Origin: Bacteroidales bacterium
Lineage (GTDB): Bacteria; Bacteroidota; Bacteroidia; Bacteroidales; Dysgonomonadaceae
Length of the DNA: 35,134 bases
Assembly: GCA_012727735.1 (NCBI GenBank)
Contig: JAAYGM010000098.1
Span: 1 to 35,134 of the forward strand
Direction: 5' to 3'
The notes below the pieces were generated by a model. The model saw nothing but the letters and a program-made list of their open reading frames with translations. It ran no database searches and had not been told where the DNA came from. The translations under genes were made by a program, and so were the position numbers. Positions within the stretch are counted from its first letter, which is position 1. Each line of letters begins with the position of its first letter. This document shows, in pieces, positions 8,222-32,136 of the stretch.

Positions 8222-11200
8222 TCAAGAATCTACCGATCCTGAAAACCGTTCAATATACTCACTCGGGCGCATACTGAACTCTTTCTTGAAGCAGGAGCTG
8301 AAATATTTTGGGTCGTTAAAGCCGACTGCGTAGGCCAGATCGGAAATCCTGATACCCCTGTTTTGATTCATGATCCGGCATGCAGCTTTCATTCTGATAT
8401 TGGTAATAAAGGCAGAACTGTTTAAACCGGTGAGTGTCTTCAACTTGTTATAAAGGGTTGATTTACTCACGTTCATCTCCTCAGAGAACTGTTGCTGGTC
8501 GAAAGATGAGTCATCGAGATGACGGTTTACACAGTCGATGGCCCTCTGCAAAAAATCCTCATCCAGGTTGGTGAAATTCATCTCTTTCATGTCGAAGACC
8601 AGCTGGCTCTTGAAGTCACGGGCAATCCGTTCACGGTTCTTAAGTAGATTTTTTATCCTGGCGTGCAGTACATTCAGATTAAAAGGTTTGCTGATAAACG
8701 CATCGGCCCCCGACTCATAGGCATCGGCACGGTCTTTCTCATCCTTCTTCGCGGTCAGCAAGATAATAGGTATGTGACTGTATTCAATATTGCTCTTCAG
8801 CAATTTACACAATTCAATCCCGTCAATCTCCGGCATCATGATATCTGAAACAATGAGGTCAATCTTTTCATGTTCCAGCATCAATAAAGCCTCTTTTCCG
8901 TTCATGGCGGTGTAGACCTGGTAGTCGTTACTCAACAACCGCTGAATCAACTGGAGGATCTCTTCATTGTCCTCCACCGCCAGCACGGAAGGGAGCTTCA
9001 TCTGTTTTTTGTCAGTGATCACTGTTCCGGCACTTATTTCGTTCTCGTCAACAACCATATCGGGCTGGCCTGTTTGCTCTGAGAGATCGATCTCCGACTC
9101 TTCAAAGTAGGAAATATCGATGGGAAGAACCACGATGAACTCACTCCCCTGACCCGGCTCACTGACAACTTCAATGGTACCGTGAGAAAGGGTCACGAGA
9201 TCTTTCACCAGCGACAGTCCTATACCCGTCCCGGTGGTTTTGTGGCGACGATAGTCTCCTTCGTAAAACCGTTTGAATAACATCTGCTGCTCCTCCTTCG
9301 GAATGCCTGCACCGTCATCTTTCACCGAGATGAGTATCTGATCTCTCTCCACTGAATAATAGGAAAGTGTGAGCTGTATGGAACCACCCTCCTGCACATA
9401 CTTGGCAGCATTGGAGATAAGATTATAGAGTATCTTATCCAGCTTGTCAATATCAAACAATCCCTGAATATTTACCGGGTCACTCAGAAAGGAGAAATGA
9501 ATCCTCTTTTTCCGGATCAGTGAATAAAATGAATCGGCAGAGTTCCTCACAAACTCAGAGATATTCCCAAAAGAGACACGCAGCTGGAGGTTCCCCGATT
9601 CAGCCTTCCTGAACTCAAGGATCTGTTGCAACAATCGGGTCAGCCGCTGAATATTGCGAGACATGGTTGAATATAAACTATCGCTGCGGGGGGCTGATTG
9701 TTGCAGCTCATCTACAGTGGCCGAAATAATGGTGAGTGGTGTCAGGAACTCATGGGTTACGTTGGTAAAAAACTGAAGCTTGGCATGATTCAGCTCTCCT
9801 GCCTTAGCCTGTTCCATCTCTCTGTATCGCAGCTGATTACGAAGATGTAATCGGTTTATCACATTCCGGTAGATTATGTAACCTGATAGGAGCAGCAGAC
9901 AGGCATAGATTAGAAAAGCCCACCATGAAAGCCATAAAGAAGGTAACACCACTATCTTCAACCGCTTGACCTCATCGTTCCATACACCATGATGAGCTGT
10001 TGCTTGTAAGAGAAAAGTATAGTTTCCGGCGGGAAGGTTATTATAGTAGGCTGTGTTCTGGGTTGCATCGCTATACCTCCATTCAGGGTCGAATCCTTCC
10101 AGTTTATAGGCATACCTGTTCAGATTAGGATGTTTAAAGTTCAACGAGGCAAAATGAATACTGAAGTTATTATATCTGTGCGGTATAGTGATGCGTTCAG
10201 AAAAAGAGGGTGTAACAGCCGAGATGGAGTGGGCAACCTCAGGTTCCAGATCGGAGAAAGATCGGTTATTAAACTCTATATCTGTAATATAGAAAGGTGA
10301 CTGAACTATATCTGCATTGACCCTTGCCGGGGAGAAGCAGGCCAGTCCTTTATATCCTCCGAAATAGAGCTTCCCATTGTAGCTGTATGATGACTTAGGT
10401 ATAAAAAAATTATCATGCAAACCGTCTGCAATAGTATAGATACGATAGCCCGTAAGGTCATCCCCCTCATCAAACGAGAGTCTTACAAGGCCTTTGTTGG
10501 TGCCAATCCATAGGTTGCCCTCTTCATCCTCCCTGATTGAATTGATCATACTTCCCAGGATGGAGCTATGTGGCGATTTGTCAATGAACCTATCTGTTTC
10601 CGGATGATAGAGATAGAGCTTTCCGCTCTCTGCCCCGGCCCACAAACGGCTTGATGAATCCAGGAACAACATGTTGAATGTGTTGGAGGTGACCCTGTTG
10701 TTCTCCCTGGTGTAATTGCGAAAGATCAGATCATCCGGTTTACGTGGATCACCTTCCACGCTGATAAGGCCATCGTTGATGGTGGCGATCCAGATCTTCC
10801 CCTTTCCATCCTCCGTGATATGGATCATGGCAGAATTTTCCAGTTCTCTGCCCTCAACAGTTATCTCATTGAATGTCCTGCCTGTTCCGTCACTGAGACG
10901 CAGACCCAGACCCTGCTGGGTGCCGATCCACCAGTTCTGCTGCCGATCCACATAGAGACTGCGAATACGATCCTCTCTGATAAAATCGCTATTATGTGAA
11001 GTAAAGGTCTCTACCGGCGCTCCTTTCCGGTAATGCCACAACCCGTCACCATAGGTAGCGAATAGTAGTCCATCGCCATCAGACTCACTGATCTCATAGA
11101 TGGTAGACTGCATGAAACCGTTGAATTCAGGCATTTCCGATTGCCGGATGATCTTTTGTGTCTGTTGGTCATAATAAACAATCCCATAGGTTCCCACACT

Positions 11201-12349
11201 CATCCACATATTTTCATTTTGGTCCAGTAAAACAGAACGGATGGCTGCGGTGGGCATCTCGGGAAGATGTACCTGAAAGAAATCAAACAATGGCTGTTCG
11301 GTATTCGTGAACATCACCCCGCCGCCAATGGTGCCAATCCAGATATTTCCGCTGTTGTCATTGATGATGGAGTTGATCTCGTTGCTGGGCAATTTGTTTG
11401 TTTCATGAAAGGTGTTATAATTGATAAAGGTTTCCGGATAATCATAATCCAGGATACTGAGTCCGCTCCGCGTACCCACCCATAGCGTTCCGGTATGCGG
11501 ATCTTCACAGATATCATACACAATGTTGTCCGACAAGCTTGTGGGAAGTGAATCATCATGGAGATAGGTTTTCCAGCTAAAACGATCCATCTCACGGGGA
11601 TGTTCCAACAGATGCAATCCCCCCTCCCATGCACCCACCCAGATATTCTCCCTGCTGTCCTGGTAGATGACATGAGCTGAGTTGCGCGGATTCAGCCGGG
11701 GATAAGTATATATGATGTTCTTTGTGGGCGAGAATCGATAGAGTCCACTGTTCCACGTACCTATCCAGATCTCGTTCTTATTGTCCTCATAAATAGATTT
11801 TACCGGGGCGGTAATCGGTAAATCCCCCATATTCAACGTGGAGTGATGAACAAAACTACCGCTATCTCTGTCAAATACAAACAAGCCATCATCCAGTCCT
11901 ATCAGCACACGATTCCCGCCGGTGATAAGGATGGAAGCGACAACCTTACTGGTACTGTTATGGATGGGTATCACCTCAAAGAGTCCACTGGATTTGTCAA
12001 ACCTGCTCATACCGCTGGCAGTACCAATCCACAGGCTGCCACTGTTGTCATCTGCCAGGCAGTAAATATTATTATCTGACAGATGGTGTGAATTGGGCAG
12101 GTCGGATCTGAACACCGTGATCCGGTATCCGTCATACTTGCAGAGACCATTGCGTGTGGCAAACCACATGAAACCTTCCCTGTCCTGATATACTTTCTGA
12201 ACTTCGCTGGTGGGCAGTCCCTCCGTCGTGTTCAGAATCCTGAAATCCAGCAGCGGTAAACCGGTTACATTCTCCGATTTCAACAGTCCGGCATAAAGAA
12301 AGAGCACAGCAAGTAAACCAGATAAACGACAGATAGCACCAACCTTCAT
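8222..12349 (-). CDS. Hybrid two-component system regulator (sensor kinase, receiver and AraC DNA-binding in one chain)
   Basis: A Sus-type one-chain regulator that senses a glycan fragment in the periplasm and switches on nearby genes. After a signal segment come two sets of Reg_prop propeller repeats (units like NIWIGTIGGGV and GNLWIGTNKGLVRLSF) to about residue 700. A Y_Y_Y domain follows (727-795), then a membrane helix (about 805-827). The cytoplasmic part has HisKA with phospho-acceptor H866 (NVTHEFLTPL), HATPase_c, a receiver with D1169 (VSDIMMPE), and a C-terminal AraC-type HTH (about 1270-1372, with FNDPKYFSSCFKKEF). An upstream in-frame ATG exists at 12367. I prefer 12349, because AAAGGTGA lies 6 bp ahead of it and the shorter protein starts with a cleaner signal peptide (MKVGAICRLSGLLAVLF). 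The gene is divergent from the GH2 gene and probably controls this locus. Confidence 0.93.
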   Translation of the reverse strand: MKVGAICRLSGLLAVLFLYAGLLKSENVTGLPLLDFRILNTTEGLPTSEVQKVYQDREGFMWFATRNGLCKYDGYRITVFRSDLPNSHHLSDNNIYCLADDNSGSLWIGTASGMSRFDKSSGLFEVIPIHNSTSKVVASILITGGNRVLIGLDDGLFVFDRDSGSFVHHSTLNMGDLPITAPVKSIYEDNKNEIWIGTWNSGLYRFSPTKNIIYTYPRLNPRNSAHVIYQDSRENIWVGAWEGGLHLLEHPREMDRFSWKTYLHDDSLPTSLSDNIVYDICEDPHTGTLWVGTRSGLSILDYDYPETFINYNTFHETNKLPSNEINSIINDNSGNIWIGTIGGGVMFTNTEQPLFDFFQVHLPEMPTAAIRSVLLDQNENMWMSVGTYGIVYYDQQTQKIIRQSEMPEFNGFMQSTIYEISESDGDGLLFATYGDGLWHYRKGAPVETFTSHNSDFIREDRIRSLYVDRQQNWWIGTQQGLGLRLSDGTGRTFNEITVEGRELENSAMIHITEDGKGKIWIATINDGLISVEGDPRKPDDLIFRNYTRENNRVTSNTFNMLFLDSSSRLWAGAESGKLYLYHPETDRFIDKSPHSSILGSMINSIREDEEGNLWIGTNKGLVRLSFDEGDDLTGYRIYTIADGLHDNFFIPKSSYSYNGKLYFGGYKGLACFSPARVNADIVQSPFYITDIEFNNRSFSDLEPEVAHSISAVTPSFSERITIPHRYNNFSIHFASLNFKHPNLNRYAYKLEGFDPEWRYSDATQNTAYYNNLPAGNYTFLLQATAHHGVWNDEVKRLKIVVLPSLWLSWWAFLIYACLLLLSGYIIYRNVINRLHLRNQLRYREMEQAKAGELNHAKLQFFTNVTHEFLTPLTIISATVDELQQSAPRSDSLYSTMSRNIQRLTRLLQQILEFRKAESGNLQLRVSFGNISEFVRNSADSFYSLIRKKRIHFSFLSDPVNIQGLFDIDKLDKILYNLISNAAKYVQEGGSIQLTLSYYSVERDQILISVKDDGAGIPKEEQQMLFKRFYEGDYRRHKTTGTGIGLSLVKDLVTLSHGTIEVVSEPGQGSEFIVVLPIDISYFEESEIDLSEQTGQPDMVVDENEISAGTVITDKKQMKLPSVLAVEDNEEILQLIQRLLSNDYQVYTAMNGKEALLMLEHEKIDLIVSDIMMPEIDGIELCKLLKSNIEYSHIPIILLTAKKDEKDRADAYESGADAFISKPFNLNVLHARIKNLLKNRERIARDFKSQLVFDMKEMNFTNLDEDFLQRAIDCVNRHLDDSSFDQQQFSEEMNVSKSTLYNKLKTLTGLNSSAFITNIRMKAACRIMNQNRGIRISDLAYAVGFNDPKYFSSCFKKEFSMRPSEYIERFSGSVDS

Positions 12350-15728
<3,379 letters not shown>

Positions 15729-16325: not shown

Positions 16326-19300
16326 ATGTATAAACTAAAGACATTCTTTTTATTTACAGTCATAAACCTGTTCTGTTTTATGACCTACGCCCAGAACATT
16401 GTTAGGGGTAACGTCGCTGATGAAGAAGGCGAGGCCGTAATCGGTGCCAGCATACTGCAAAAAGGTACCTCCAATGGTACGGTTACCGACATCGACGGAG
16501 ACTTCTCCTTCAGCGCTCCCATTGGATCAACCCTTCAAATAAGCTATATCGGCTACATCACGCAGGAGGTAGCAGTGACAAGTCAGTCCTTAAACATTGT
16601 GCTTCTGGAAGACACAAGAACACTCGACGAAGTGGTCGTGGTGGGCTTTGGTACACAGAGAAAGGTGAATCTTACCGGATCGGTAGGCATAGCCACTGCT
16701 GAGGATATTGAATCAAGACCAGTAAACACGGTATCTGATGCGCTCCAGGGGATTATCCCCGGGTTGCAGCTGACCCATAATGCGGGCGATATCGAGTCGA
16801 ATATGTCTATCAGAATCCGTGGTACCGGCACCATCGGTGAAGGCTCCAGCGATAGCCCACTGGTGTTGATCGACGGCATGGAGGGTGATATCAACCTGCT
16901 CAATCCGGAGGATGTAGAGTCAATCTCAGTACTCAAGGATGCTTCCGCGTCATCTATCTATGGTTCACGCGCTGCTTTCGGTGTGATACTGATCACAACC
17001 AAGAAAGGTAGTGAAGGGAAAACCATGGTGAACTATAACAACAGCTTCCGCCTTACCAGCCCCATAAGTATGCCGGAGATGATGGACTCCTACACTTTTG
17101 CCAACTATTACAACCAGGGTGCACTGAATGCCGGATGGGGTACCATCTTTAATGATGCGACGATGAAAAGGATGATGGATTTCCAGGCGGAAGGCGGCAC
17201 CAGCACCGGAGGTCTACTGACCGACGGTAAAGTATGGGGAAAGCCCGCGGGAGACCCATTTACCACAGGATATGCCAATACTGACTGGTACAATGAGCTC
17301 TATCGTGACAATGCACTCTCACAGAACCACAACCTCAGCATCAGCGGGGGTAGTGAGAAGCTGAACTATTATGCCTCTCTCGGATATCTGAATAATAACG
17401 GGATGCTTCGCCACGGCTCTGATGGTCAGGACAGGTACAATGCTTCCGGAAAAATCAGCGCCCGTCTGGCTGACTGGGTGACATTCAACTACAGCATGCG
17501 ACTGATACGGCAGGATCTTAACCGTCCCACCAATTTCGGTGGCGGATTCTACGAGAAAATAGGACGTCAGACATGGCCCAACCTACCAATATATGATGAA
17601 AACGGCTTCTACCACAATAGTAATGGTGATACACCGGCAATGATGCTTGCTCTGGGTGGTGAGCGACAGGCACAGACCGACAGGGTCTATCAACAGGCAG
17701 CATTCATCCTGGAGCCGATAGAGAACTGGCGTACACACGTTGAATTCAACTACAGTATCTATAACCAGGATGTACGTCAGACCGGACTGCCCTACTACAA
17801 TCATGATGTGGAGGGAAATGTCATTGACACCCAGGGCACCTCAAGTCTTCACCAGTCATACAGAAAAGAAAACTATATGAACTGGAACATCTATTCAGAC
17901 TACTCATGGACCATGGATGATTCCCATAACTTCAAAACAATGGTCGGTTTCCAGGGAGATGAACAAAAACAAAGCTCCTTCTCTGCCACCGGCTATGGCT
18001 TACAGGCCGAGAACCTGCCGGAACTTAATCTGGTTTCAGGTGTGGACGGACAGGGTGTGGACAGGGAAGCAGAGATTGCAGGGTATCGCAACCAGTGGTC
18101 AACTGCAGGTTTCTTTGGCCGTATCAACTATGACTATGAAGGGCGCTATCTGGCTGAGGCCAATCTGCGGTACGACGGTTCTTCACGTTTTCGCAGAGGA
18201 AACAGATGGACCTGGTCTCCCTCCTTCTCTCTGGGATGGAACATTGCCCATGAAGGATTCTGGGAAGATATGGTCGACGTAGTCAACCAATTCAAGGTGC
18301 GCGGATCTTATGGCGTACTGGGCAACCAGAGTACCACCGGATGGTATCCCACCTACCGTACCATGACAATCAACTCACAGGCAGGAAACTGGCTGCAGTC
18401 GGGAACCCGTCCAAACACCGCATGGGTGAACAACCTGGTAAGTACCTCTCTCACATGGGAGACGATACGCACCTGGAACATCGGCCTCGACTGGGGCATG
18501 TTCAACAACCGCCTGACAGGTACTTTCGAAACTTTCGTACGATTCACCGACGATATGGTGGGGCCGGCCATGGAACTCCCTGCAACACTGGGACTCTCAG
18601 CACCAAGCTCCAACAACAGTGACCTGAAGACGGTGGGTAATGAGATTACTCTCACCTGGAGAGATCGCATCTCCAGTGACTTCAGTTATGGTATCACACT
18701 CAATGTTCACGATGCCAGAACCTTTATCCGCAGTTATCCCGGCAACACAACGAAATCGATATGGAACTACAATAACGGTCGTGAGATTGGCGAAATTTGG
18801 GGATATGAAACAGCTGGTATTGCAAAAACACAGGAAGAGATGGATGCCCATCTCGAGGCTGTGGGTGGACAAACAGCTCTCGGCTCTGAATGGTCGGCAG
18901 GAGATATCATGTATGCCGACGTCGACGGCAAGCCGGGCATCAGCGCGGGGGCAGAGACACTGGGCGACCATGGTGACCTGAAGGTGATTGGCAACAGCAC
19001 ACCCCGCTACTTCTTCGGGGCTGATCTTACAGCCAATTACAAAGGTTTCGATGTGCGTGCCTTCATCCAGGGTATTGGTAAACGTGATTATTTCACCGGC
19101 AGTCCTATTTTCTGGGGTGTCACCAGCAACCAGTGGTGGTCAGCAGCACTTGGAGCACATCAGGACTATTTCCGTCCGAACGATATCGGGCTTGAGGGTA
19201 GAGTAATCGCGGCCAACACCGACTCCTATTTCCCACGTCCTGTATTCGGCACCAGCAAGAACCAGCAAAGACAGACTCGTTATCTGCAGAATGCCTCCTA

Positions 19301-19526
19301 TATCCGTCTGAAAAACCTGCAGCTTGGTTATACCATCCCGGTACATCTCAGCCAGAAAGCAGGCATCTCCAACTGTCGGCTGTTCGTTTCGATCGATAAT
19401 CTCCTGACAGGTACCAACCTGCTGAAGGTATTTGACCCGGAAACAATTGACGGCGGGTACGAGAGCTATGGAAACGCATATCCCCTGGCACGTACATTCT
19501 CGTTTGGGATATCTACATCATTTTAA
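16326..19526 (+). CDS. SusC-like TonB-dependent outer-membrane transporter (first locus)
   Basis: A 1066-residue outer-membrane protein that imports glycan fragments with energy from TonB, working with the SusD partner encoded 21 bp downstream. The signal peptide is about residues 1-22 (ending TYAQ). A carboxypeptidase D regulatory-like domain follows (about 25-95). The TonB-box region TLDEVVVVGFGTQRKVNLTG is next, and then the plug domain with the SusC signature SVLKDASASSIYGSRAAFGV. The rest is the beta-barrel, which ends in SFGISTSF with a C-terminal Phe as expected for an outer-membrane barrel. The substrate is set by context and is likely oligosaccharides from a galactan-type polymer. 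The gene has its own promoter region and a terminator behind it after susD, so susC-susD probably form a two-gene transcript. Confidence 0.95.
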   Translation: MYKLKTFFLFTVINLFCFMTYAQNIVRGNVADEEGEAVIGASILQKGTSNGTVTDIDGDFSFSAPIGSTLQISYIGYITQEVAVTSQSLNIVLLEDTRTLDEVVVVGFGTQRKVNLTGSVGIATAEDIESRPVNTVSDALQGIIPGLQLTHNAGDIESNMSIRIRGTGTIGEGSSDSPLVLIDGMEGDINLLNPEDVESISVLKDASASSIYGSRAAFGVILITTKKGSEGKTMVNYNNSFRLTSPISMPEMMDSYTFANYYNQGALNAGWGTIFNDATMKRMMDFQAEGGTSTGGLLTDGKVWGKPAGDPFTTGYANTDWYNELYRDNALSQNHNLSISGGSEKLNYYASLGYLNNNGMLRHGSDGQDRYNASGKISARLADWVTFNYSMRLIRQDLNRPTNFGGGFYEKIGRQTWPNLPIYDENGFYHNSNGDTPAMMLALGGERQAQTDRVYQQAAFILEPIENWRTHVEFNYSIYNQDVRQTGLPYYNHDVEGNVIDTQGTSSLHQSYRKENYMNWNIYSDYSWTMDDSHNFKTMVGFQGDEQKQSSFSATGYGLQAENLPELNLVSGVDGQGVDREAEIAGYRNQWSTAGFFGRINYDYEGRYLAEANLRYDGSSRFRRGNRWTWSPSFSLGWNIAHEGFWEDMVDVVNQFKVRGSYGVLGNQSTTGWYPTYRTMTINSQAGNWLQSGTRPNTAWVNNLVSTSLTWETIRTWNIGLDWGMFNNRLTGTFETFVRFTDDMVGPAMELPATLGLSAPSSNNSDLKTVGNEITLTWRDRISSDFSYGITLNVHDARTFIRSYPGNTTKSIWNYNNGREIGEIWGYETAGIAKTQEEMDAHLEAVGGQTALGSEWSAGDIMYADVDGKPGISAGAETLGDHGDLKVIGNSTPRYFFGADLTANYKGFDVRAFIQGIGKRDYFTGSPIFWGVTSNQWWSAALGAHQDYFRPNDIGLEGRVIAANTDSYFPRPVFGTSKNQQRQTRYLQNASYIRLKNLQLGYTIPVHLSQKAGISNCRLFVSIDNLLTGTNLLKVFDPETIDGGYESYGNAYPLARTFSFGISTSF

Positions 19527-19547: not shown

Positions 19548-21596
19548 ATGAAACTTATTAATTATAAATATCTATTCAACATCATTCTGATGACAGTACT
19601 CTTTGCCGGCGTCACATCCTGTGATGACTTCCTGGACAAAGAACCCATGTCGAACATCTCCCCGGAGAAATTTTACTCCTCCGCCTCTCAGCTGGATGCG
19701 ATACTGATGGATCTCTATCCCAACATCCTTCCCGGGCACTCCAACTGGAGCTATGGCATTTACGGGGAAGACAACGGAACGGATAACCAGATAGGTGTCA
19801 CAGCGCACAACCGCTACACAACTGACCGCTGGCTGGTACCCAACAGTGAGTCAAACAACTGGGCATTCAACCGCATCTATCATATGAACTTCTATCTCAA
19901 CCAGACACTCCAGAAGTTCGGGGAGAACATGGATGGCTCTGAGTCGGTGATTACCGGCAACTCAGCCCATGTGAAACATTATATCGGTGAAATGTACTTT
20001 CTTCGCGCATTTGAATATTTCAAGAAGCTGCAGATGTTCGGCGACTTCCCTATCATCACCGAACCACTACCCGATGATATTGAAGTACTTACAGAAGCCA
20101 GCAAACGCTCACCACGCAATGAAGTAGCACGCTTCATCCTGGAGGACCTGGACAAGGCATATGCATATATGGGCGAGACAGATTTGAATACTACCCGTAT
20201 TAATAAAGATGTAGCCTTACTGCTTAAATCGAGGGTAGCCCTCTTTGAGGGAACATGGCTGAAGAACTTCAAGGGTACAGCTTTCGTGCCGGGGGGAGAA
20301 AACTGGCCGGGAGCAGAACAACACCCAAGTTACAGCTATCCCGCGGGAAGCATCGACGGTGAAGCCACCTGGTTCCTCACACAGGCAGTTGATGCTGCCA
20401 GGATTGTGGGAGATAAATACAAGGGCAGCCTCACACCCAACAGCGGCAACCTGCAGCAATCACCCGATGAGCCGGAGAACCCTTACTACAACATGTTTTC
20501 AGGTGAAGATCTCTCTGATTACCCCGAAGTGATGTTGTGGCGTCAATATGGACGCGGTCTGGTTACTCATAATGTCAACTCGGCAGCTGGCAGGGGTAAC
20601 TACCGTATCGGACTGACCAGGGGTTATGTACAGAATTTCCTGATGGCCGACGGGACACCGGTGTATACCCACGGTGCATATGATGAAGGCAACGGATACT
20701 ATATGGGAGACAAGACCATCGCAGATGTACGTGCCAATCGTGACAGCCGCCTCTCCCTGTTCCTCAAAGAGCCGGGACAGAAGAATATCCTCTTTGAGCC
20801 CGATAACCAGGAAGGTACAGAAGCAGTGATGACAGAACCCTTCCCGGCCATCACGCTGGGTGACACCGAACGTGGCTATGCTACCGGATACGCTCTCCGC
20901 AAGGGTGGCTCACTCAACAGAAAACACTACGCCAACGGTGGAGGATTTACTGCAGCCATCGCATTCCGATCGGTTGAAGCATTGCTGAACTATATTGAAG
21001 CAAGCTACCTTCTTAACGGAACCATCGATGCAACAGCAGCCGACTACTGGAGATTGATCCGCGAAAGAGCTGGTGTAGATACTGATTTCAACAACACCAT
21101 CGCATTGACCGACATGAGCAGGGAAGCAGAAAATGACTGGGGTGCCTACACCGCCGGAACAGTAATCTCAGACCCCACACTCTATAATATCCGTCGTGAA
21201 CGCCGCAGTGAGCTGCTGGCAGAAGGATTCCGTTATATGGACCTCCGCCGCTGGCGTTCTATGGATCAGCTGATTGAGACACCTCACCACATGGAAGGAT
21301 TCCATCTCTGGAACACACCGATGCAGGAGTGGTATAATGAAGGGGAGCTCACTTACGATGAAGGGACAAACTCAACTGTTTCTCCTCCGGAGAAGAGTGA
21401 ATACCTCCGTCCCTTTGAACGTTACTCCGGACAGGCTGGCTACAATGGATGTACATGGAGAATGGCCCACTATCTTGAACCGATCATGATCAAGCAGTTT
21501 CTGCTCACCTCTCCCGGAGGAAGTGACCCGGCAGAGTCGACCATCTACCAAAACCCCTACTGGCCACTGGAAGCAGGCGTACCGGCCAGCAATTGA
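19548..21596 (+). CDS. SusD-like outer-membrane glycan-binding lipoprotein (first locus)
   Basis: The lid partner of the SusC protein just upstream; it binds glycan at the cell surface and helps load the transporter. Residues 1-25 form a lipoprotein signal ending GVTSC, with the lipid-carrying Cys at 25, followed by DDFLDKEP. Acidic residues right after the Cys fit the known surface-export signal of Bacteroidota. TPR-like helices follow, with the family motif EMYFLRAFEYFKKLQMFGDFP near residue 150, and the C-terminal RagB/SusD region with NIRRERRSELLAEGFRYMDLRRW. At 682 residues it is longer than the usual 500-600, with the extra length spread over loops in the middle and C-terminal half. It is followed by a strong terminator. 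Confidence 0.94.
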   Translation: MKLINYKYLFNIILMTVLFAGVTSCDDFLDKEPMSNISPEKFYSSASQLDAILMDLYPNILPGHSNWSYGIYGEDNGTDNQIGVTAHNRYTTDRWLVPNSESNNWAFNRIYHMNFYLNQTLQKFGENMDGSESVITGNSAHVKHYIGEMYFLRAFEYFKKLQMFGDFPIITEPLPDDIEVLTEASKRSPRNEVARFILEDLDKAYAYMGETDLNTTRINKDVALLLKSRVALFEGTWLKNFKGTAFVPGGENWPGAEQHPSYSYPAGSIDGEATWFLTQAVDAARIVGDKYKGSLTPNSGNLQQSPDEPENPYYNMFSGEDLSDYPEVMLWRQYGRGLVTHNVNSAAGRGNYRIGLTRGYVQNFLMADGTPVYTHGAYDEGNGYYMGDKTIADVRANRDSRLSLFLKEPGQKNILFEPDNQEGTEAVMTEPFPAITLGDTERGYATGYALRKGGSLNRKHYANGGGFTAAIAFRSVEALLNYIEASYLLNGTIDATAADYWRLIRERAGVDTDFNNTIALTDMSREAENDWGAYTAGTVISDPTLYNIRRERRSELLAEGFRYMDLRRWRSMDQLIETPHHMEGFHLWNTPMQEWYNEGELTYDEGTNSTVSPPEKSEYLRPFERYSGQAGYNGCTWRMAHYLEPIMIKQFLLTSPGGSDPAESTIYQNPYWPLEAGVPASN

Positions 21597-21807: not shown

Positions 21808-24800
21808 ATGAACAAGATTAAAATGATTGCCTTCTATACCGTTATTCTGCTGCTGAATGTAGCCTATGGCTGTAATTCAACTTCAAGGGTACAGGCATCG
21901 AGTACTCAACCGGCTCAAGCCAGAGCCGAAGCATTGGATGTAATTAATAAGGCAAATGATTACTGGCAATTAAACAACCCCGATCACGGTGATGCGTTCT
22001 GGCACCGTGCAGCTTATCACACCGGCAATATGGCAGCGTATGAGGTGACAAAAAAAGAGGAGTACCTCCGCTTTTCCGAAGCGTGGGCTCAGAAGAATGA
22101 TTGGAAAGGGGCTCAGTCAGAACAGAAAGAAAACTGGAAGTACGCATACGGGGAAACGGATGAATATGTACTTTTTGGTGACTGGCAGATCTGTTTTCAG
22201 GTCTATGCCGACCTCTATAACCTGTCACCGGCAGATCATAAGATCGCACGTGCCATGGAAGTGATGGAGCATCAGATGAACACACCACAGAACGACTACT
22301 GGTGGTGGGCCGACGGTCTCTACATGGTGATGCCGGTGATGACGAAATTATACCAGATAACACACGATGAGCTCTATCTCAATAAACTTCACGACTACTT
22401 CAGTTTTGCAAGAGAGCTGATGTATGATGAAGAGGCAGGTCTCTTTTACAGAGATGCCAAATACCTCTATCCGAAGCATCAGACAGCAAGCGGGAAGAAA
22501 GATTTCTGGGCTCGTGGTAACGGATGGGTGTTCGCCGGACTGGCAAAAGTGCTGGAAGATTTACCCGCGAGCGATCCTCATCGCGATGAGTATATTCAAA
22601 TATTCCGGAAGATGGCCTCATCGCTGAAAGCATCACAACAGGCCGAAGGATACTGGTCGAGGAGTATTCTCGATCTGCAGCAGGCACCCGGTTATGAAAC
22701 CAGTGGTACTGCGTTCTTTCTCTACGGCTATCTGTGGGGTATCAATAACGGTTATCTGAATGAGCAGGAGTATACTCCCGTCGCAGAGAAAGCATGGAGC
22801 TATCTGACAACCATCGCCCTCCAGGAGGACGGAAAGGTGGGATATGTGCAGCCTATTGGCGAGAGGGCCGATCAGCACAAAAACGTAGGTCCGGAAACAA
22901 CAGCCGACTTTGGTGTAGGTGCCTTCCTTCTTGCAGCTTCTGAGATGGTGAAGTATGCCCAATCGAAAAGTTCCTTCACCCCCGGTGCAATCTGGCGGGA
23001 CAACCAGGGCAATCATATCAACGCACATGGCGGAGGCATTCTCTACCACGATGGCACCTACTACTGGTACGGGGAACATCGTCCTCACAGAGGTTATATC
23101 ACCGAAGAGGGAGTCACCTGCTATACGTCTGAGGATCTCTATAACTGGAAGAATGAAGGGGTGGTAATGCCGGTTTCAGTGGATGAAGAGAGTCCCATCG
23201 CGAAAGGATGTATCATTGAGCGGCCTAAAGTGATCTATAATGAGGCCACGAAGAAGTTTGTGATGTACTTCCATCTCGAACTGAAGGGGCAGGGATATGC
23301 TGCCGCGCAGTATGGTGTTGCAACAAGTGATTCTCCCACGGGACCTTTCACCTACCTGAAATCGTCACGGGTAAACAGCGGACACTGGCCGCTCAACATG
23401 TCAGGCGAAGAGCAGCAGCTGAAGGTTACCATTGATGATCATGCTGAATGGTGGACACCGCAATGGAGCAAGGATGTGAACGAGGGGATGTTCGTACGGC
23501 GTGATTTTCAGGGAGGACAGATGTCGCGCGATATGACACTGTTTGTTGATGAGGACCGGAAAGCGTATCATATCTACGCCTCGGAGGAGAATCTGACACT
23601 GCAGATAGCAGAGCTGTCGGACGATTACCTGAGTCATAGCGGCCGCTATATACGCGTGGAAGCGGGTGGTCATAACGAAGCACCGGCAATCTTCAAGAAG
23701 AATGGACGTTACTTTATGATTACCTCCGGTTGCACCGGATGGGAACCCAACGCTGCACGTCTGCTGGTGGCCGGTGAGATCATGGGAGAATGGAACGTAA
23801 TGCCCAACCCTGCAAGAGGAGAAGGAGCTGAACGCACCTTTGAATCACAAAGTACCTTCATCCTGCCGGTCGCCGGCAAAGAGGATGCTTTTATCTTTAT
23901 GGCCGACAGGTGGAAACCACGAAGCCTGGGCGACAGCCGTTATATCTGGCTGCCGGTGCTGTTCGAAAACGGATACCCCATACTCAGATGGATGGAAAAC
24001 TGGTCGCTCGCTATTTTTGATGATCTGACTGCCGACAGGAACAGTCCCCCTGAATATGATGGTTACAGCCTGGTGTGGAGTGACGAATTTGAGAATGAAG
24101 GAAGGCCCGATACCAACGTATGGTCTTTCGAGAAAGGATTCGTAAGGAACAATGAACTGCAGTGGTATCAGGAGGAGAATGCTCTCTGCAAGGAGGGTAT
24201 CCTTACTATCTCGGCACGCAGGGAGACCGCGGAGAATCCAATGTATGAAGAGGGAAGCAACGACTGGAGAAAAAGCAGAAGCCATGTCGGATACACCTCA
24301 TCATCAATCAAAACCCAGAGTAAAAAGGAGTTTCTCTATGGACGCTTCGAGGTCAGGGCACGGATACCTGTTGCCGGAGGATCCTGGCCGGCCATATGGA
24401 CACTGGGAACTGATATGGAGTGGCCCTCAAACGGCGAGATAGATATCATGGAGTACTACCTTATCGACGGCGAGCCCCATATCCTGGCTAATACCGCGTG
24501 GGGGACGGATCAACGCTACAACGCCATGTGGGACAGCTCCGCTACTCCCTTCACCCATTTCACCAAAAAAGATCCGCACTGGGCCGATAAATTTCATATC
24601 TGGCGCATGGACTGGGATGAAGAAGCTATCCGCCTCTACCTCGACGGGGAACTGCTGAACGAAACACTCCTGAGTGAGACCATCAACGGATCACTGGGTG
24701 ATTTTAAAAACCCCTTCCAGCAACCCCACTACCTGCTCCTGAACCTGGCAATCGGCGGTCAGCACGGCGGCACACCCGATGAAGCCGCTTTTCCGCTACA

Positions 24801-24840
24801 CTATGAGATAGATTACGTGAGAGTCTATCAGTCCCGTTAA
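21808..24840 (+). CDS. Three-enzyme lipoprotein: GH105 + GH43 (subfamily 24/34 type) + GH16
   Basis: One unbroken 1010-codon frame carries three catalytic modules. The lipoprotein signal ends NVAYGC (Cys22). Residues about 35-375 are GH105, an unsaturated uronyl hydrolase fold, with AYHTGNMAAY, D125 (FGDWQ), D169 (WWWADGLYM) and FWARGNGW at 233-240. Residues about 390-735 are a GH43 five-bladed propeller with NAHGGGILYHDGTYYWYGEH near 405, E471 (IIERPKV) and likely acid E624 (NEAPAIF). It has Ala-His where most GH43 enzymes carry the base Asp, as in GH43_24 exo-beta-1,3-galactanases. Residues about 750-1010 are GH16 with intact GEIDIME (nucleophile E877, D879, acid/base E882). Linkers are short. 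The mix suggests end-trimming, uncapping and internal cleavage of a beta-1,3-galactan. GH16 could instead be a laminarinase type. The protein lies downstream of susCD behind its own terminator-bounded gap. Confidence 0.88.
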   Translation: MNKIKMIAFYTVILLLNVAYGCNSTSRVQASSTQPAQARAEALDVINKANDYWQLNNPDHGDAFWHRAAYHTGNMAAYEVTKKEEYLRFSEAWAQKNDWKGAQSEQKENWKYAYGETDEYVLFGDWQICFQVYADLYNLSPADHKIARAMEVMEHQMNTPQNDYWWWADGLYMVMPVMTKLYQITHDELYLNKLHDYFSFARELMYDEEAGLFYRDAKYLYPKHQTASGKKDFWARGNGWVFAGLAKVLEDLPASDPHRDEYIQIFRKMASSLKASQQAEGYWSRSILDLQQAPGYETSGTAFFLYGYLWGINNGYLNEQEYTPVAEKAWSYLTTIALQEDGKVGYVQPIGERADQHKNVGPETTADFGVGAFLLAASEMVKYAQSKSSFTPGAIWRDNQGNHINAHGGGILYHDGTYYWYGEHRPHRGYITEEGVTCYTSEDLYNWKNEGVVMPVSVDEESPIAKGCIIERPKVIYNEATKKFVMYFHLELKGQGYAAAQYGVATSDSPTGPFTYLKSSRVNSGHWPLNMSGEEQQLKVTIDDHAEWWTPQWSKDVNEGMFVRRDFQGGQMSRDMTLFVDEDRKAYHIYASEENLTLQIAELSDDYLSHSGRYIRVEAGGHNEAPAIFKKNGRYFMITSGCTGWEPNAARLLVAGEIMGEWNVMPNPARGEGAERTFESQSTFILPVAGKEDAFIFMADRWKPRSLGDSRYIWLPVLFENGYPILRWMENWSLAIFDDLTADRNSPPEYDGYSLVWSDEFENEGRPDTNVWSFEKGFVRNNELQWYQEENALCKEGILTISARRETAENPMYEEGSNDWRKSRSHVGYTSSSIKTQSKKEFLYGRFEVRARIPVAGGSWPAIWTLGTDMEWPSNGEIDIMEYYLIDGEPHILANTAWGTDQRYNAMWDSSATPFTHFTKKDPHWADKFHIWRMDWDEEAIRLYLDGELLNETLLSETINGSLGDFKNPFQQPHYLLLNLAIGGQHGGTPDEAAFPLHYEIDYVRVYQSR

Positions 24841-25280: not shown

Positions 25281-26960
25281 CTATTTCAGTTTTTTTCCCC
25301 AGAAGGTGGCATTCAGAATCTTTTCGGTACCTGCATAAACAATCGTAACACGTCGCGGGTTGGCCTCCCAGTCCACTTCCCTTTCAACGCAGACAATCAC
25401 ATTGCCCAGGGAGAGCTGTTTTTTGGATGCATCGTAACTCCAGCTGCCAGTCAGCGCGCCCGATAGTGTGCCGTTGGCATGGAGGGTTAAAGCCGTTGCC
25501 CTGTTTTGTTGCCCGTAACTGTATTCCAGTTTGATGTGTTCCCAGGTTCCCACAAGTGAGTCTTTGGTGATGGCACCGTAATCGGGTACGGCGGCGTAAC
25601 GTTGGGGCAGTGCGATGGGCCAGAGGTTGTCGGGTTCGCTTTTAGATGCAGGGCACCATACGATACGGCGGACATGTCCCATCATGATGGCATTGGAGTA
25701 TGCGTTGCCGCCAACGTTCTCAGGCAATCGTCCCTGCGACATGTAGAACCATTCGTTGCTGTTTTCCTTTTTGAAGACAGCGCAGTGTGAAATGCCTACC
25801 CATCCGGGGTTGAGATTGAACTTGTAAGGGTGGGTCACAATCGGATAGCTGTCTCCCCGTCCGTTGGTGAAGTTGCGGCCGGTGATGTCGAGGTAGGGAC
25901 CTTCAATGTTTTCACTTCTGACCACCCGGGTGTTGTAGGGTACATCAAGCCCGTCGTAGGCCATGAACAGATAGTAGTAACCATCCTTGTAAATAATCTC
26001 GGGAGCTTCGCTACCCTGCCAGCGTGACGCAGCTGTGCGAGTGCCCACTCTCACTCCATAGCGTGTCTCGAGCTCGCTCGCACTGTCAGCGTAAGGCTCC
26101 CCTTGCATATTAAGCGGTTTACCCGTTGTTGCATCCACCTGCTGGAGAGCAAAACCGCTGTGCCATGAGCCATATATCAGGTAATGCTTCCCCCCGGGTG
26201 TTACGATATAGGTAGGGTCGATCGCGTTGTAATAGAAATAGGCATCCCAACTGGAGAGGCTGGTGCGACTGTAATTTTTTCCACGATCGGATGAGGAGGT
26301 GGTCACGTATCCCTTGTCTGTCCATACGGCACCGGCAGGATCGGTCGATTCACACATGCCGATAAAGGCACGCTCCACCCAGCTGCCGTCGAAGTTGGCC
26401 GACGTATTGTCTTTGCCCGTTTTGATATAGTTATCGATGATGATGCTGTAGTACATGCGCAGGATCTCCTGCCCGCCCACATTGACCCGCCTGACGACAG
26501 GAGCCCAGTAGCCATAATTGATATTCTCCCCGGCAATAACATCGAGTCCCATGCGCGAACGGATGGCGTTGAGCGAGTCGGCCACCCAGCTGGGGGCATC
26601 ATAAAAGGGTCCTCCCACCCAATCCCAGTTGACCAGGTCTGTTGAGCGCTTGCCCTGAAAATGACCATGCCCTTCGTGCGCATTACCGTATGAAGCATCG
26701 GTGCCATACATGTAGTAGTATCCGTTGTAATAAGCAACTGAGGGGTCATGCACGTTGGCCAGGTTCCACGCTCCCCGTTTCGACCAGGAGGCAATCGCCG
26801 AGTAGTCGTCGGCGTAGGTCGGGATGGTCCATCCGTTTCCATTTCCGGGTTCAGGCTCCGGCTTCTCCCCCCCGGGATCAATTCCGTCATCCTTGCTGCA
26901 CCCTGCCAACAGCAGGGCGGTGATGCCGATGAATAAAAACAACAGATACTTGCGTCTCAT
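25281..26960 (-). CDS. GH43 endo-alpha-1,5-L-arabinanase-like lipoprotein
   Basis: Predicted to cut alpha-1,5-linked arabinan. With the start at 26960 the protein has 559 residues and begins with the lipoprotein signal MRRKYLLFLFIGITALLLAGC (Cys21), followed by an acidic Gly/Pro-rich spacer. The frame extends upstream to 27038, but that start would put 26 polar residues before the signal, so I reject it. The GH43 propeller shows the base D72 (NVHDPSVAYY), GYWAPVV, a pKa-modulating D248 (NAIDPTYIV) and the acid E318 (GSEAPEIIYKDGYYYLF). GISHCAVF carries the His seen at the propeller centre in this group. The C-terminal 90 residues (GTWEHIKLEYSYG to FWGKKLK) resemble the beta domain found after the catalytic part in extracellular endo-arabinanases. 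It is the last gene of the second locus, 85 bp after susD. Confidence 0.9.
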   Translation of the reverse strand: MRRKYLLFLFIGITALLLAGCSKDDGIDPGGEKPEPEPGNGNGWTIPTYADDYSAIASWSKRGAWNLANVHDPSVAYYNGYYYMYGTDASYGNAHEGHGHFQGKRSTDLVNWDWVGGPFYDAPSWVADSLNAIRSRMGLDVIAGENINYGYWAPVVRRVNVGGQEILRMYYSIIIDNYIKTGKDNTSANFDGSWVERAFIGMCESTDPAGAVWTDKGYVTTSSSDRGKNYSRTSLSSWDAYFYYNAIDPTYIVTPGGKHYLIYGSWHSGFALQQVDATTGKPLNMQGEPYADSASELETRYGVRVGTRTAASRWQGSEAPEIIYKDGYYYLFMAYDGLDVPYNTRVVRSENIEGPYLDITGRNFTNGRGDSYPIVTHPYKFNLNPGWVGISHCAVFKKENSNEWFYMSQGRLPENVGGNAYSNAIMMGHVRRIVWCPASKSEPDNLWPIALPQRYAAVPDYGAITKDSLVGTWEHIKLEYSYGQQNRATALTLHANGTLSGALTGSWSYDASKKQLSLGNVIVCVEREVDWEANPRRVTIVYAGTEKILNATFWGKKLK

Positions 26961-27045
26961 CTCATTAAAATTTACGTTAGAAACTTCCTTATCAACATGC
27001 AAAAAAGAGGTTGATAAGAAAGTCTCTAAATTAAGCAATTAATTT

Positions 27046-28800
27046 CTATTGTACAACAGGACGAATATTGTACTTCTCCCTGAAAGCGGGACCGTTATCT
27101 TCATTCTTGTTTGCTGAGTTGCCTTCCAGGTTAGGGTTGGCATTCAGCGTAGATTGATAGATAGGGAAATATTCATGTCCTTTGTAAAAATAATTGAACG
27201 ACGAGTCGTCAGCTGTTTCAGCGGTAAGTTCTTCGGTTGAGGCAGTGCCGTCGCGCTTGTAATAACCATGCTTTACCAGCTGATTCAGACGTCCCTGATC
27301 GTAGAAAAATCCCCAGCGCAGCAGGTCGATACCACGTCCGTTCTCGCAACCGAACTCTTTCGGACGTTCCACGTTTGCAATCTGTTCGAAAAGAGCATCG
27401 GCAGAGGGGAAGTCGGCAAGTTTGAGCTCCGGCAGCGCTACGCGGCGACGTACCTGGTTGATGTAATCAATCGCTGTCTGGGTGGGTCCGTTGATTTCGT
27501 TCTCACATTCAGCAGCACGCAGCAAGACATCACTGTAACGCATCATGCGGAGGTTGACGCCGCACTGCAGCCCGTTTGTAATGGAACTGTAGATGTTGTT
27601 TCTTGCATTGGTGAACTTGGCAATTGATATACCCCCTTGTGCATTGTTTGACAGAGGTGTTTCAGTAATCTCATTTTTATAAACAATGTTACTGCGCGGA
27701 TCACCGTTTGGATAGGCTGCTGTTTTCTGGTCGGTATAGCTGTTGTATTCATCTTCGTAGGTCACCAGCGTCCAGTACAAACGAGGATCGAGACGACCAT
27801 CAGTGGAGGACTCTTTTATGAACAGGTTGTACAGCCATGGTGAACCGGCCAGGTCACCCCAGCTTCCCAACTCCTGAGAAGCATAGTTGCTTTCTACGGC
27901 GTGACCCTGGGTTGCCTCCGAACTAATGTTTACCGGCGTCCACTCTTCGTCGGTACCCCCTGTTCCATAATCCATGAATTGTACCTCGAAGAGGCTCTCC
28001 ACATTATTCTCGTAGGGTGAACCTTCCCTGAAGTTATCGCCATAGTCGGCGGTGAGTGCGTAATGTCCGAATTTACCGGCGATGATATCTTTCAATATCG
28101 TATAAGCCGCATCAAATTTATGACGGAACATCAATGCACGGGCCATATACCCCGCAGCAGCTCCGCTTGTGGCACGTCCCTGTGCCCATTCACCCCCTTT
28201 ATCGCGTGACGGAAGCATCTCCATCGCCAAGGCCAGGTCAATCTCAATCTGGTCAAACACTTCGTCCTGTGTATTGTTAGGTGCATACATGGTGTTGATA
28301 TCAGAATAAGAGGCGTAGTCGGTAATCAATGGCACGGTCTGATAATAGGTAGAGAGGTGGTAGTATGCCAAAGATCTGAGGAAGAGTGCCTGCCCGGCGA
28401 TCTCATTGTATGACTCCTGTGACATCTCAACGGCATCTACTTTCGACAATACAAAGTTTGTGCGATTCACCACATGGTACCAGTCACGCCATATCCATTG
28501 GTCACCGATATCAATCGTTCCCGGTGAGTTGAGATTGTCGTACTCCAGATACCATTGCTGGGATGAATTCCACACTTCGTCGCCACGTACGGCATCCATT
28601 GTGTAACCGACACGGGCAAACGAGCCTTCGAGGCGAACACGGTTGTAGCAGGCGATGACAGCCTCCTGAAGTTCAGCCTCTGATTCGCCGAAATCGTACG
28701 TTGTCTGATTGTTCGGGTTTACAACATTGAGTGCGTCATTGCAGGCTGTGAAGCCTCCGATAAGCGCCAACATTATAAGGATGATATTTAAATTTTTCAT
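27046..28800 (-). CDS. SusD-like outer-membrane glycan-binding lipoprotein (second locus)
   Basis: A 584-residue SusD/RagB protein, the surface partner of the SusC protein encoded just upstream. The lipoprotein signal is MKNLNIILIMLALIGGFTAC with the lipid Cys at 20, followed by NDALNVVNPN. A helical TPR-like core carries the family motif GQALFLRSLAYYHLSTYYQTVPL. The C-terminal half has VLLRAAECENEINGPTQTAI and the ending region with ENGRGIDLLRWGFF. The length is normal for the family. It lies 114 bp after susC, a wider gap than in the first locus, but no terminator is seen between them. With an arabinanase behind it, the bound glycan is most likely arabinan. Confidence 0.94.
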   Translation of the reverse strand: MKNLNIILIMLALIGGFTACNDALNVVNPNNQTTYDFGESEAELQEAVIACYNRVRLEGSFARVGYTMDAVRGDEVWNSSQQWYLEYDNLNSPGTIDIGDQWIWRDWYHVVNRTNFVLSKVDAVEMSQESYNEIAGQALFLRSLAYYHLSTYYQTVPLITDYASYSDINTMYAPNNTQDEVFDQIEIDLALAMEMLPSRDKGGEWAQGRATSGAAAGYMARALMFRHKFDAAYTILKDIIAGKFGHYALTADYGDNFREGSPYENNVESLFEVQFMDYGTGGTDEEWTPVNISSEATQGHAVESNYASQELGSWGDLAGSPWLYNLFIKESSTDGRLDPRLYWTLVTYEDEYNSYTDQKTAAYPNGDPRSNIVYKNEITETPLSNNAQGGISIAKFTNARNNIYSSITNGLQCGVNLRMMRYSDVLLRAAECENEINGPTQTAIDYINQVRRRVALPELKLADFPSADALFEQIANVERPKEFGCENGRGIDLLRWGFFYDQGRLNQLVKHGYYKRDGTASTEELTAETADDSSFNYFYKGHEYFPIYQSTLNANPNLEGNSANKNEDNGPAFREKYNIRPVVQ

Positions 28801-28914
28801 ATGATAAATATATTTATTTTTAAAGATATCTTACTGAACTTGCTTTAATCATCTGTTGGTGTGACAATGATCATCCTGCTCGTTTCATATTGATAGCTTT
28901 TTATGATTATAGTC

Positions 28915-31900: not shown

Positions 31901-32112
31901 CCATCGGCGCCGGTAACAGTACCTACGGTTGTTCCGGGTTGCTGTACGGTTGCGCCCGGAAGCGGGTCACCATACTCGTCAATGACTCTACCTTTTACCG
32001 TGATCTCGCCTGCTTGTGTCGTTAACACCTGGCCGGCATTGCCGTTACTTTCTGCGAATGTTGCCGGTGCGAGGACCAGTAATCCCAACAGGATTAATAA
32101 TGAATATTTCAT
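28915..32112 (-). CDS. SusC-like TonB-dependent outer-membrane transporter (second locus)
   Basis: A 1065-residue TonB-dependent importer for oligosaccharides. The signal peptide is MKYSLLILLGLLVLAPATFA. A carboxypeptidase D regulatory-like domain spans about residues 36-110 (ITVKGRVIDEYGDPLPGATV). The TonB-box region VLDQVVVVGYGTQRKVDLTG follows, then the plug with APLYVVDGVPMG and the SusC signature LQVLKDASAAAIYGSRAANG. The barrel ends LMFGVNFSF with a terminal Phe. It lies 24 bp after the two-copy repeat lipoprotein gene and 114 bp before susD, so these genes are likely co-transcribed from the promoter upstream of 33849. It is clearly a different paralogue from the SusC at 16326, with only the family motifs shared by eye. 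Confidence 0.95.
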   Translation of the reverse strand: MKYSLLILLGLLVLAPATFAESNGNAGQVLTTQAGEITVKGRVIDEYGDPLPGATVQQPGTTVGTVTGADGSFSLSVPADATLVISFVGTRSVEMNVGGRTELGVITMVPDLQVLDQVVVVGYGTQRKVDLTGSVAVVNTDEMKKVSHSNISTMLEGKIAGVQITSDGQPGADPTVRIRGIGSFGNTAPLYVVDGVPMGTTIRDFSPNDIETLQVLKDASAAAIYGSRAANGVVIITTKQGVRNKPMKIDYSGYMGVDQVRSGVYNVMDSHQYGEYTTMAYHNSGMDVPAGYNPASEKYIDPGVVNTNWFNEAFKTGVRQNHNINLSGGGANNTYNIGLDYYKQEGTMVGAGPNFERYTARVNNVMEAKFIKIQTNVVYSHSDQDNMALSNANEYVQGLYGAQYPVMASALLLPPTIKAYDESTWVLDDKISSASQYNYDSHGFGTYYDDVHGDLRVTNVLLTNSLLERNAVVDRIVASGSVTVDLFDMVGRKNENHKLDYKLNLSYSKTFAKDFTFVPAFIQSTTNYLAKSNETLSQGYRNYSDALAENLLTYDGKFGLSHFNVVVGQTFQREIYHTLTGKGVNLPEPYYLQVNNAEETSATSFESEHVLASYIGRVNYNYDEKYLLSATVRRDGSSRLSSLDRWGWFPSVSAGWRIERENFFAVDPSTINLFKLRGSYGELGNENIGEYQYMDVMARGDYTYSFGNNKITGSSISNYVNTAIRWEKKKMLDIGLDLGMFNNQLEFTVDWYKSTSEDLLYSVAVPANAGATNETVTMNAATMENSGLEFLVTYRNRRNALKYDISANFSTLNNKVTKLGVSGEPRTDGYSRTEVGREVGSFYGYVYEGIFQSQTEIDSRVNSEGMYINQPGAQPGDVAYADLNGDGEITNEDQTFLGSGIPKVHFGLNARVEWKGFDLSLSTYGAAGFKVVDFVDLTLHSSYGTLNKSVDLLNAWTPENTNTSVPRVAYKSSGSITNDMFSERFLQDASYLKIANITLGYNFSDRWFGGYLNNVRLYASAQNLGTLTKYKGYNVDFAGGTFTPGYNYSSFPTPKTLMFGVNFSF

Positions 32113-32136
32113 AGTTTATATTTTTTTTCTTTATAA

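Follow-up and report, generated by a model that had tools for sequence, protein, structure and literature searches.

A probable arabinogalactan-degrading protein joining GH105, GH43 and GH16 modules, and shuffled fusions of the same enzymes in Bacteroidota

A single gene of a Bacteroidales bacterium, at positions 21808 to 24840 (+) of a 35,134-nucleotide stretch of contig JAAYGM010000098.1 (the whole stretch analysed, hereafter the window), encodes a 1010-residue protein in which glycoside hydrolase (GH) modules of families GH105, GH43 and GH16 are joined. We consider it probable that this protein (the triple) is anchored to the membrane in the periplasm and brings three enzymes to bear on type II arabinogalactan, the glycan of plant arabinogalactan proteins (AGPs), and that it derives from the fusion of a GH105 gene with a GH43-GH16 gene. 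The triple would be one of several arabinogalactan-enzyme fusions in Bacteroidota. As a variant built from known arabinogalactan enzymes it is of less interest than the repeated shuffling of its modules, which we consider the more interesting result.

Results

The three-module protein and its catalytic residues

The gene, identified by its open reading frame (ORF), Pfam matches and relatives, is divided as follows.

21808..24840 (+): GH105-GH43_24-GH16 three-module protein, 1010 residues
21808..21873 (+): signal peptide, C22 being the lipoprotein cysteine; the next seven residues are NSTSRVQ, none acidic
21895..22971 (+): GH105 module, residues 30-388, with D125 and D169; nearest solved structure 5noa
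22972..24021 (+): GH43 subfamily-24-like module, residues 389-738, with E471, E624 and Q681; nearest solved structure 6eug (BT3683), 62% identity
24040..24837 (+): GH16 module, residues 745-1010, with E877, D879 and E882; laminarinase-like, nearest solved structure 6t2n (34%)

A preliminary description of this DNA had proposed three hydrolases with short linkers in one lipoprotein, and had named a missed stop or frameshift as grounds for doubt. The frame starts with ATG and has no internal stop, and it recurs in five further genomes. Three Pfam matches, all above the curated cut-offs, lie within it: Glyco_hydro_88 (PF07470, the GH88/GH105 model) at residues 45-383 (E 5e-85), Glyco_hydro_16 at 805-1003 (E 3e-13) and, between them, Glyco_hydro_43 (E 2e-16). 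The linkers are indeed short, with the final GH105 helix continuing straight into GH43 and about 6 residues separating the GH43 and GH16 matches. Lipoprotein status is plausible, Cys22 being preceded by a weak lipobox (VAYG-C, judged by eye).

The residues that the preliminary description had called intact (D125, D169, E877 and E882) are all present. The GH105 aspartates D125 and D169 we take to be catalytic, as in YteR/UGL. The catalytic motif of GH16 is EXDXXE, which reads E877-I-D879-I-M-E882 in the window protein, and the GH43 module has E423, E471, D575, E624 (acid) and Q681 (base). All ten positions were invariant in the module sequences compared (GH105 104/104, GH43 89/89 and GH16 57/57), a set that had passed thresholds of 90% length and 44% identity and still contained near-duplicates.

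The GH43 module, previously placed only in the 24/34 type, can be narrowed to a GH43_24-like enzyme. It is 62% identical to BT3683 (6eug, E 1e-158), which is titled a beta-1,3-galactosidase, and it combines the acid Glu with a Gln replacing the usual Asp base. In the alignment with Pc1,3Gal43A, Glu208 and Gln263 of that enzyme correspond to E624 and Q681. As PMC7939473 assigns roles to its Glu102, Glu208 and Gln263, E471, E624 and Q681 were taken as the key residues. Exo-beta-1,3-galactanase activity would be expected of such a module.

Membership of GH105 is indicated by PF07470, by both active-site aspartates and by likeness to the 5noa fold (65% identity, and 28% to 4ce7). The title of the 5noa entry names the Rha-GlcA lyase BACCELL_00875, and the chain itself is named a family 88 hydrolase; the lyase role of BACCELL_00875 is treated in PMC8377490. 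YteR and an ulvan-pathway enzyme are also found among the GH105-family structure matches. The GH16 module has the catalytic motif and a 6t2n-like fold, with 6t2n and laminarinases roughly equally near, and its fusion to GH43_24 suggests that it may be an endo-beta-1,3-galactanase. The structure prediction that the preliminary description had proposed was made with AlphaFold2 from 46 sequences, giving a mean predicted local distance difference test score (pLDDT) of 87.1 and a predicted template modelling score (pTM) of 0.69, a pTM that does not establish the placement of the modules relative to one another. Each module of the model matches structures of its family by Foldseek (template modelling scores by target length: 6eug 0.96, 5noa 0.91 and 6t2n 0.82).

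Shuffled fusions in other loci

The fusion survey covered 204 loci and the window, and an ORF was counted when it held at least two listed modules. Because the loci were picked by similarity to the window protein, the counts are not population frequencies; in the searches at order and phylum level, no more than two candidates from each genome were scored. Among 60 fusion ORFs (8 of them cut by contig ends; L049 and L054 near-identical) we found 20 architectures, 13 of which rest on one ORF each, several from metagenome-assembled genomes (MAGs). The order 105-43-16 occurs in nine ORFs: that of the window, those of its five complete relatives, two that are cut, and that of L042, which is titled a Prevotellaceae MAG. 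The order 105-16-43 is present in L170 and L171, whose two genomes share a genus that does not belong to the window's family, and 43-105-16 in L085, which is titled a Dysgonamonadaceae MAG. Each of the six possible ordered adjacencies was seen: 43>16 in 26 cases, 105>43 in 13, 16>43 in 9, 105>16 in 4, and 16>105 and 43>105 in 2 each. The unusual orders of L085, L170, L171, L077 and L181 were verified by Pfam. Two-module proteins are common (GH43-GH16 in 16 ORFs, GH16-GH43 in 7), and thus the earlier statement that arabinogalactan loci encode these families by separate genes holds only in part.

Longer fusions include 105-43-DUF2264, 43-105-DUF2264, 16-105-DUF2264, 105-BNR_4-GH127, 43-16-GH35 and GH127-16-105-DUF2264, the last with its 5' end cut. 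The further partners are accordingly a GH145-type BNR_4 module, GH127 and GH35, together with a GH51-type arabinofuranosidase; Pfam alone adds GH43-alpha-L-fucosidase and DUF2264-GH16 fusions. A GH43_24-type module is joined to an alpha-L-fucosidase at L140 283-2661, and L190 and L191 hold right-handed beta-helix-GH43_24 fusions.

Whichever module the tree is built from (GH16, GH105 or GH43), the proteins with the orders 105-16-43 and 43-105-16 are placed apart from the Proteiniphilum group, which includes the window. The difference in module order in itself suggests that these triples were assembled separately. Among the papers listed by a literature search, judged by titles and the beginnings of abstracts, none dealt with this triple or with the shuffling. 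We put forward tentatively, as a serious possibility, that arabinogalactan enzymes of Bacteroidota have been fused repeatedly and independently in nearly every order, among them a dehydratase placed immediately after the hydrolase that uses its product, and that fusion itself, not a fixed architecture, is under selection. If true, fusion may be selected for substrate hand-over or for fixed stoichiometry at one branched glycan. The recurrence of these fusions in varied order serves as a natural experiment that asks whether coupling enzymes physically aids the digestion of branched glycans.

A proposed action on one polymer

The sugars on which the fusion partners act, galactose, arabinose, rhamnose-capped glucuronate and fucose, are those of AGPs. 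Since these modules recur in different orders and alongside further arabinogalactan-type enzymes, the shuffled fusions lend strong, if indirect, support to the earlier proposal that the three activities meet on one polymer, and it is probable that the modules cooperate on arabinogalactan. In this scheme GH16 would make internal cuts in the beta-1,3-galactan backbone; GH43_24, passing over beta-1,6 side chains, would release beta-1,3-linked galactose from chain ends; and the 4,5-unsaturated glucuronate at the ends of side chains would be removed by GH105. The fixed sequence of cutting, trimming and decapping that had been proposed found no support. Since GH43_24 enzymes bypass side chains, as PMC7939473 describes, decapping need not gate the backbone steps.

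Distribution and origin of the triple

The family survey took in 101 genomes (E up to 1e-100, at most eight candidates scored per genome). The complete one-frame triple is present in six genomes (G000, G055, G066, G074, G078 and G087), and in two more (G059 and G069) it is cut by contig ends. All eight carriers belong to the window's genus, a group of 39 genomes that probably corresponds to Proteiniphilum, and the triple is thus no singleton. Most of the GH88/105 frames listed from the 101 genomes measure about 360-420 residues; further groups lie near 600 and at 710-780 residues, and a single frame has 954. Six listed frames exceed 1000 residues, and these are the six complete triples. Fusion or extension is therefore not confined to this GH105 subfamily, and frames above 1000 residues, among those listed, are.

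Several relatives carry the modules in other states. In G051, G054 and G056 a GH43-GH16 protein is accompanied by a separate GH105 gene, and in G060 GH105 and GH43 are adjacent genes with a 55-residue GH16 remnant (L192 1036-2389). In G070 a GH105-GH43 protein ends at a stop (L043 1-2133). The gene order SusC-SusD-GH105-(GH43-GH16)-GH2-GH43 of L185 (G056) is an unfused, syntenic version of the order SusC-SusD-triple-GH2-GH43 in L186, L188 and L040, several of the genes having been identified by Pfam and the rest by similarity to window genes or another locus. The GH43 gene of G056 and G060 has its own signal peptide and follows GH105 after a short gap, whereas in the triples GH43 begins directly behind the final helix of GH105. 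By eye, a lipoprotein-type cysteine is present in the complete triples and in the stand-alone GH105 of G056 and G051; in the GH43-GH16 protein it is absent in G056 and may be present in G051 and G054. We infer that the triple arose in the Proteiniphilum lineage when a lipoprotein GH105 gene was joined to the adjoining GH43-GH16 gene, the direction being fusion, not fission.

A single origin in Proteiniphilum was not rejected by the approximately unbiased (AU) test for any module (p 0.43 for GH105, 0.56 for GH16, 0.12 and 0.27 for GH43); the GH105 and GH43 sets took in the G070 and G075 rows. The GH43 tree hints that two triple lineages of Proteiniphilum may have exchanged this module, which we do not claim because the single clade was not rejected. 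In four close pairs of triples the ratio of nonsynonymous to synonymous substitution rates (dN/dS) was 0.04-0.23 per module and 0.07-0.25 across both junction stretches. Where the window protein itself was one partner (two pairs), dS had reached saturation in all comparisons but that of GH16 with L040 (ratio 0.05). As dN/dS is low both in the modules and over the junctions, intact triples are under purifying selection and are kept. Between L186 and L040, dS was 0.08 for GH43, 0.17 for GH105 and 0.69 for GH16, which hints at recombination within the gene.

DUF2264 and the unsaturated uronate

DUF2264 lies directly behind GH105 in 11 of the 12 surveyed fusion ORFs that bear it:

GH105-DUF2264 fusions: L060 7932-10175; L062, L063, L064, L065, L068, L069, L175, L072, L077 and L079

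The nearest solved structure of DUF2264 is 8oi4, named a beta-galactosidase, followed by two proteins named glucuronate dehydratases. According to PMC12269599, two 'GH154' proteins, BT_3677 among them, dehydrate terminal glucuronate, this activity is proposed for the whole family, and one of the two dehydratases prepares its substrate for attack by a GH88 hydrolase; the paper also doubts that 8OI4 has the hydrolase activity ascribed to it. The GH105-DUF2264 chain may possibly join a producer and a consumer of unsaturated glucuronate, and such fusions give independent genomic support for the proposal that 'GH154' glucuronate dehydratases feed unsaturated-uronate hydrolases. Among the papers listed in the same literature search, none reported a GH105-DUF2264 fusion. 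DUF4861 stands before or after GH105 in L172 2934-7001 and L177 3133-5442, where it may represent another uronate step.

The L052 BNR_4 protein is GH145-like by its nearest structures, and it shares 78%, 58% and 49% identity with the BNR_4 modules found in the fusions of L118, L094 and L096, respectively. GH145 includes a characterised gum arabic rhamnosidase and members without that activity (PMC8377490). In the eight triple genomes, at E up to 1e-20, DUF2264 was found in G059 and G087 and a GH145-type protein in G069 and G078. An arabinogalactan locus would be expected to come with an enzyme that generates the unsaturated glucuronate, either a lyase of the PL27/PL42 type or a dehydratase. 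Conceivable sources of the GH105 substrate in the host are candidates such as PL27, an unrecognised lyase or fragments freed by neighbours. A BNR_4 and laminin-G-like protein at window 6312-8216 may be a lyase or a binding protein. Considered as a possible source of the unsaturated uronate, it has no solved relative at E 0.001, gives only two chance-like matches at E up to 10, and shows no similarity to the GH145 type.

Alternative explanations

Sharing one chain is no proof of cooperation, and fusion might serve co-expression or shared anchoring alone, with the modules acting on different cell-wall polymers, such as pectin fragments for GH105 and beta-1,3-glucan for GH16. We consider this unlikely, and several observations weigh in its favor or against action on arabinogalactan. 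GH16 is laminarinase-like by its nearest structures, yet its identity to the solved structures of laminarinases and of an O-glycanase is just 33-35%, low enough that a beta-glucan or another galactan is possible as its substrate. The GH105-family matches include YteR and the ulvan-pathway enzyme. No DUF2264 and no GH145-type protein was found in a search of the host genome (99.5% complete, 309 contigs), and neither was found in G055 (listed as 100% complete). The triple of G074 (L187) is flanked by POTRA, BatD, stress-protein and riboflavin-type genes, with no SusC/SusD pair among the scanned neighbours. Relatives moreover keep GH105-GH43 having lost GH16: G070 has no GH16 in the 10 kb examined, and in G075 GH105-GH43 runs across two contigs with GH16 reduced to its final 38 residues in another frame (L195 2316-3490). 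GH16 is therefore dispensable in some relatives. Against different polymers, however, the same subfamilies are fused recurrently, in varied orders, with enzymes for other arabinogalactan sugars, and GH105 is much nearer to 5noa than to 4ce7.

That the triple is an artefact of a chimeric contig or a missed stop has practically no likelihood. The window is part of a 309-contig draft, but the complete frame recurs in five further genomes, including the 3-contig G078 and the roughly 10-contig G074, and these independent copies rule the artefact out; the absence of internal stops and the purifying selection on the junctions in relatives agree with this. A different matter is whether one ancient triple was later broken and rearranged, in place of repeated fusion. 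Since G075 retains a GH16 tail behind GH105-GH43, breakdown of triples does occur, and the single Proteiniphilum origin discussed above fits such a history. When L042 was joined to Proteiniphilum, the grouping was not rejected for GH16 (p 0.33), but it was borderline for GH105 (p 0.037) and rejected for GH43 (p 0.0018). The follow-up clade tests for GH105 and GH43 used reduced sets picked after the trees were seen, so that their p-values are lenient, and a GH105 test with p 3e-6, which also forced G056 and G060 out, was not used on L042. An independent origin of the L042 triple is thus supported by GH43, borderline by GH105 and not supported by GH16. One ancestor would hardly yield three module orders, and the 105-16-43 and 43-105-16 proteins stand apart from Proteiniphilum in every module tree. 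We regard a single ancient triple as quite improbable.

Genomic locus and cell location

The window gene lies together with SusC, SusD, GH2 and regulator genes, as expected of an arabinogalactan locus:

8222..12367 (-): hybrid two-component regulator
12600..15728 (+): LacZ-type GH2 beta-galactosidase, a probable partner (similarity and comparison of loci)
16326..19526 (+): SusC-like transporter of the same locus
19548..21596 (+): SusD-like lipoprotein (SusD1), with CDD at the lipid Cys

A GH2 relative of 59% identity sits two genes past the 43-105-16 triple in L085. From its position, the hybrid regulator probably controls the locus. Around the triple of L200 (G066) no relative of the window SusC/SusD was seen.

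Acidic residues after the lipid Cys usually mark surface lipoproteins. By eye, the first six residues after the Cys contain no acidic export signal in the window protein and its five complete relatives. Because C22 is followed by no such signal, unlike the CDD of SusD1, the triple is probably anchored in the membrane facing the periplasm, and an endo-cut at the cell surface is not indicated.

Window 25281-33849 holds another SusC/SusD locus, which is divergent and may serve arabinan. It includes a GH43 ending in a lipocalin-like C-terminal domain, and L186 contains relatives of its SusD (93% identity) and of this GH43 (87%).

Comparison with known systems

The closest characterised enzyme is BT3683 of B. 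thetaiotaomicron, a GH43_24 exo-beta-1,3-galactanase (6EUG/6EUH/6EUI) whose GH43 is 62% identical to that of the window. The GH43 of BT3683 apparently lies behind an N-terminal stretch of about 280 residues, whereas that of the window is central; since the residue numbers Glu367 and Gln577 leave room for it, an N-terminal module is possible, and no GH105 is known there. BT3683 and Pc1,3Gal43A have the same Glu acid and Gln base as the window GH43 (PMC7939473). The pairing of a dehydratase with a uronyl hydrolase in BcGDH/BcGH88 and BT_3677 resembles that in the 11 GH105-DUF2264 ORFs, but BcGDH and BcGH88 are separate enzymes of a B. caccae pathway for chondroitin (PMC12269599) and the window protein is without DUF2264. 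GH43-GH16 genes of the Dysgonomonas type and of other Bacteroidales (L203, L202) have the same modules in the same order and adjoin SusD, whereas their GH105 is encoded elsewhere in the locus (G010) or on another contig (G031). The Bacteroides GH105 enzymes 5NOA and 4Q88, which are 65% and 56-57% identical over the window GH105, are chains of one module (381 and 359 residues), whereas the GH105 of the window is fused to its neighbour at the C-terminal helix.

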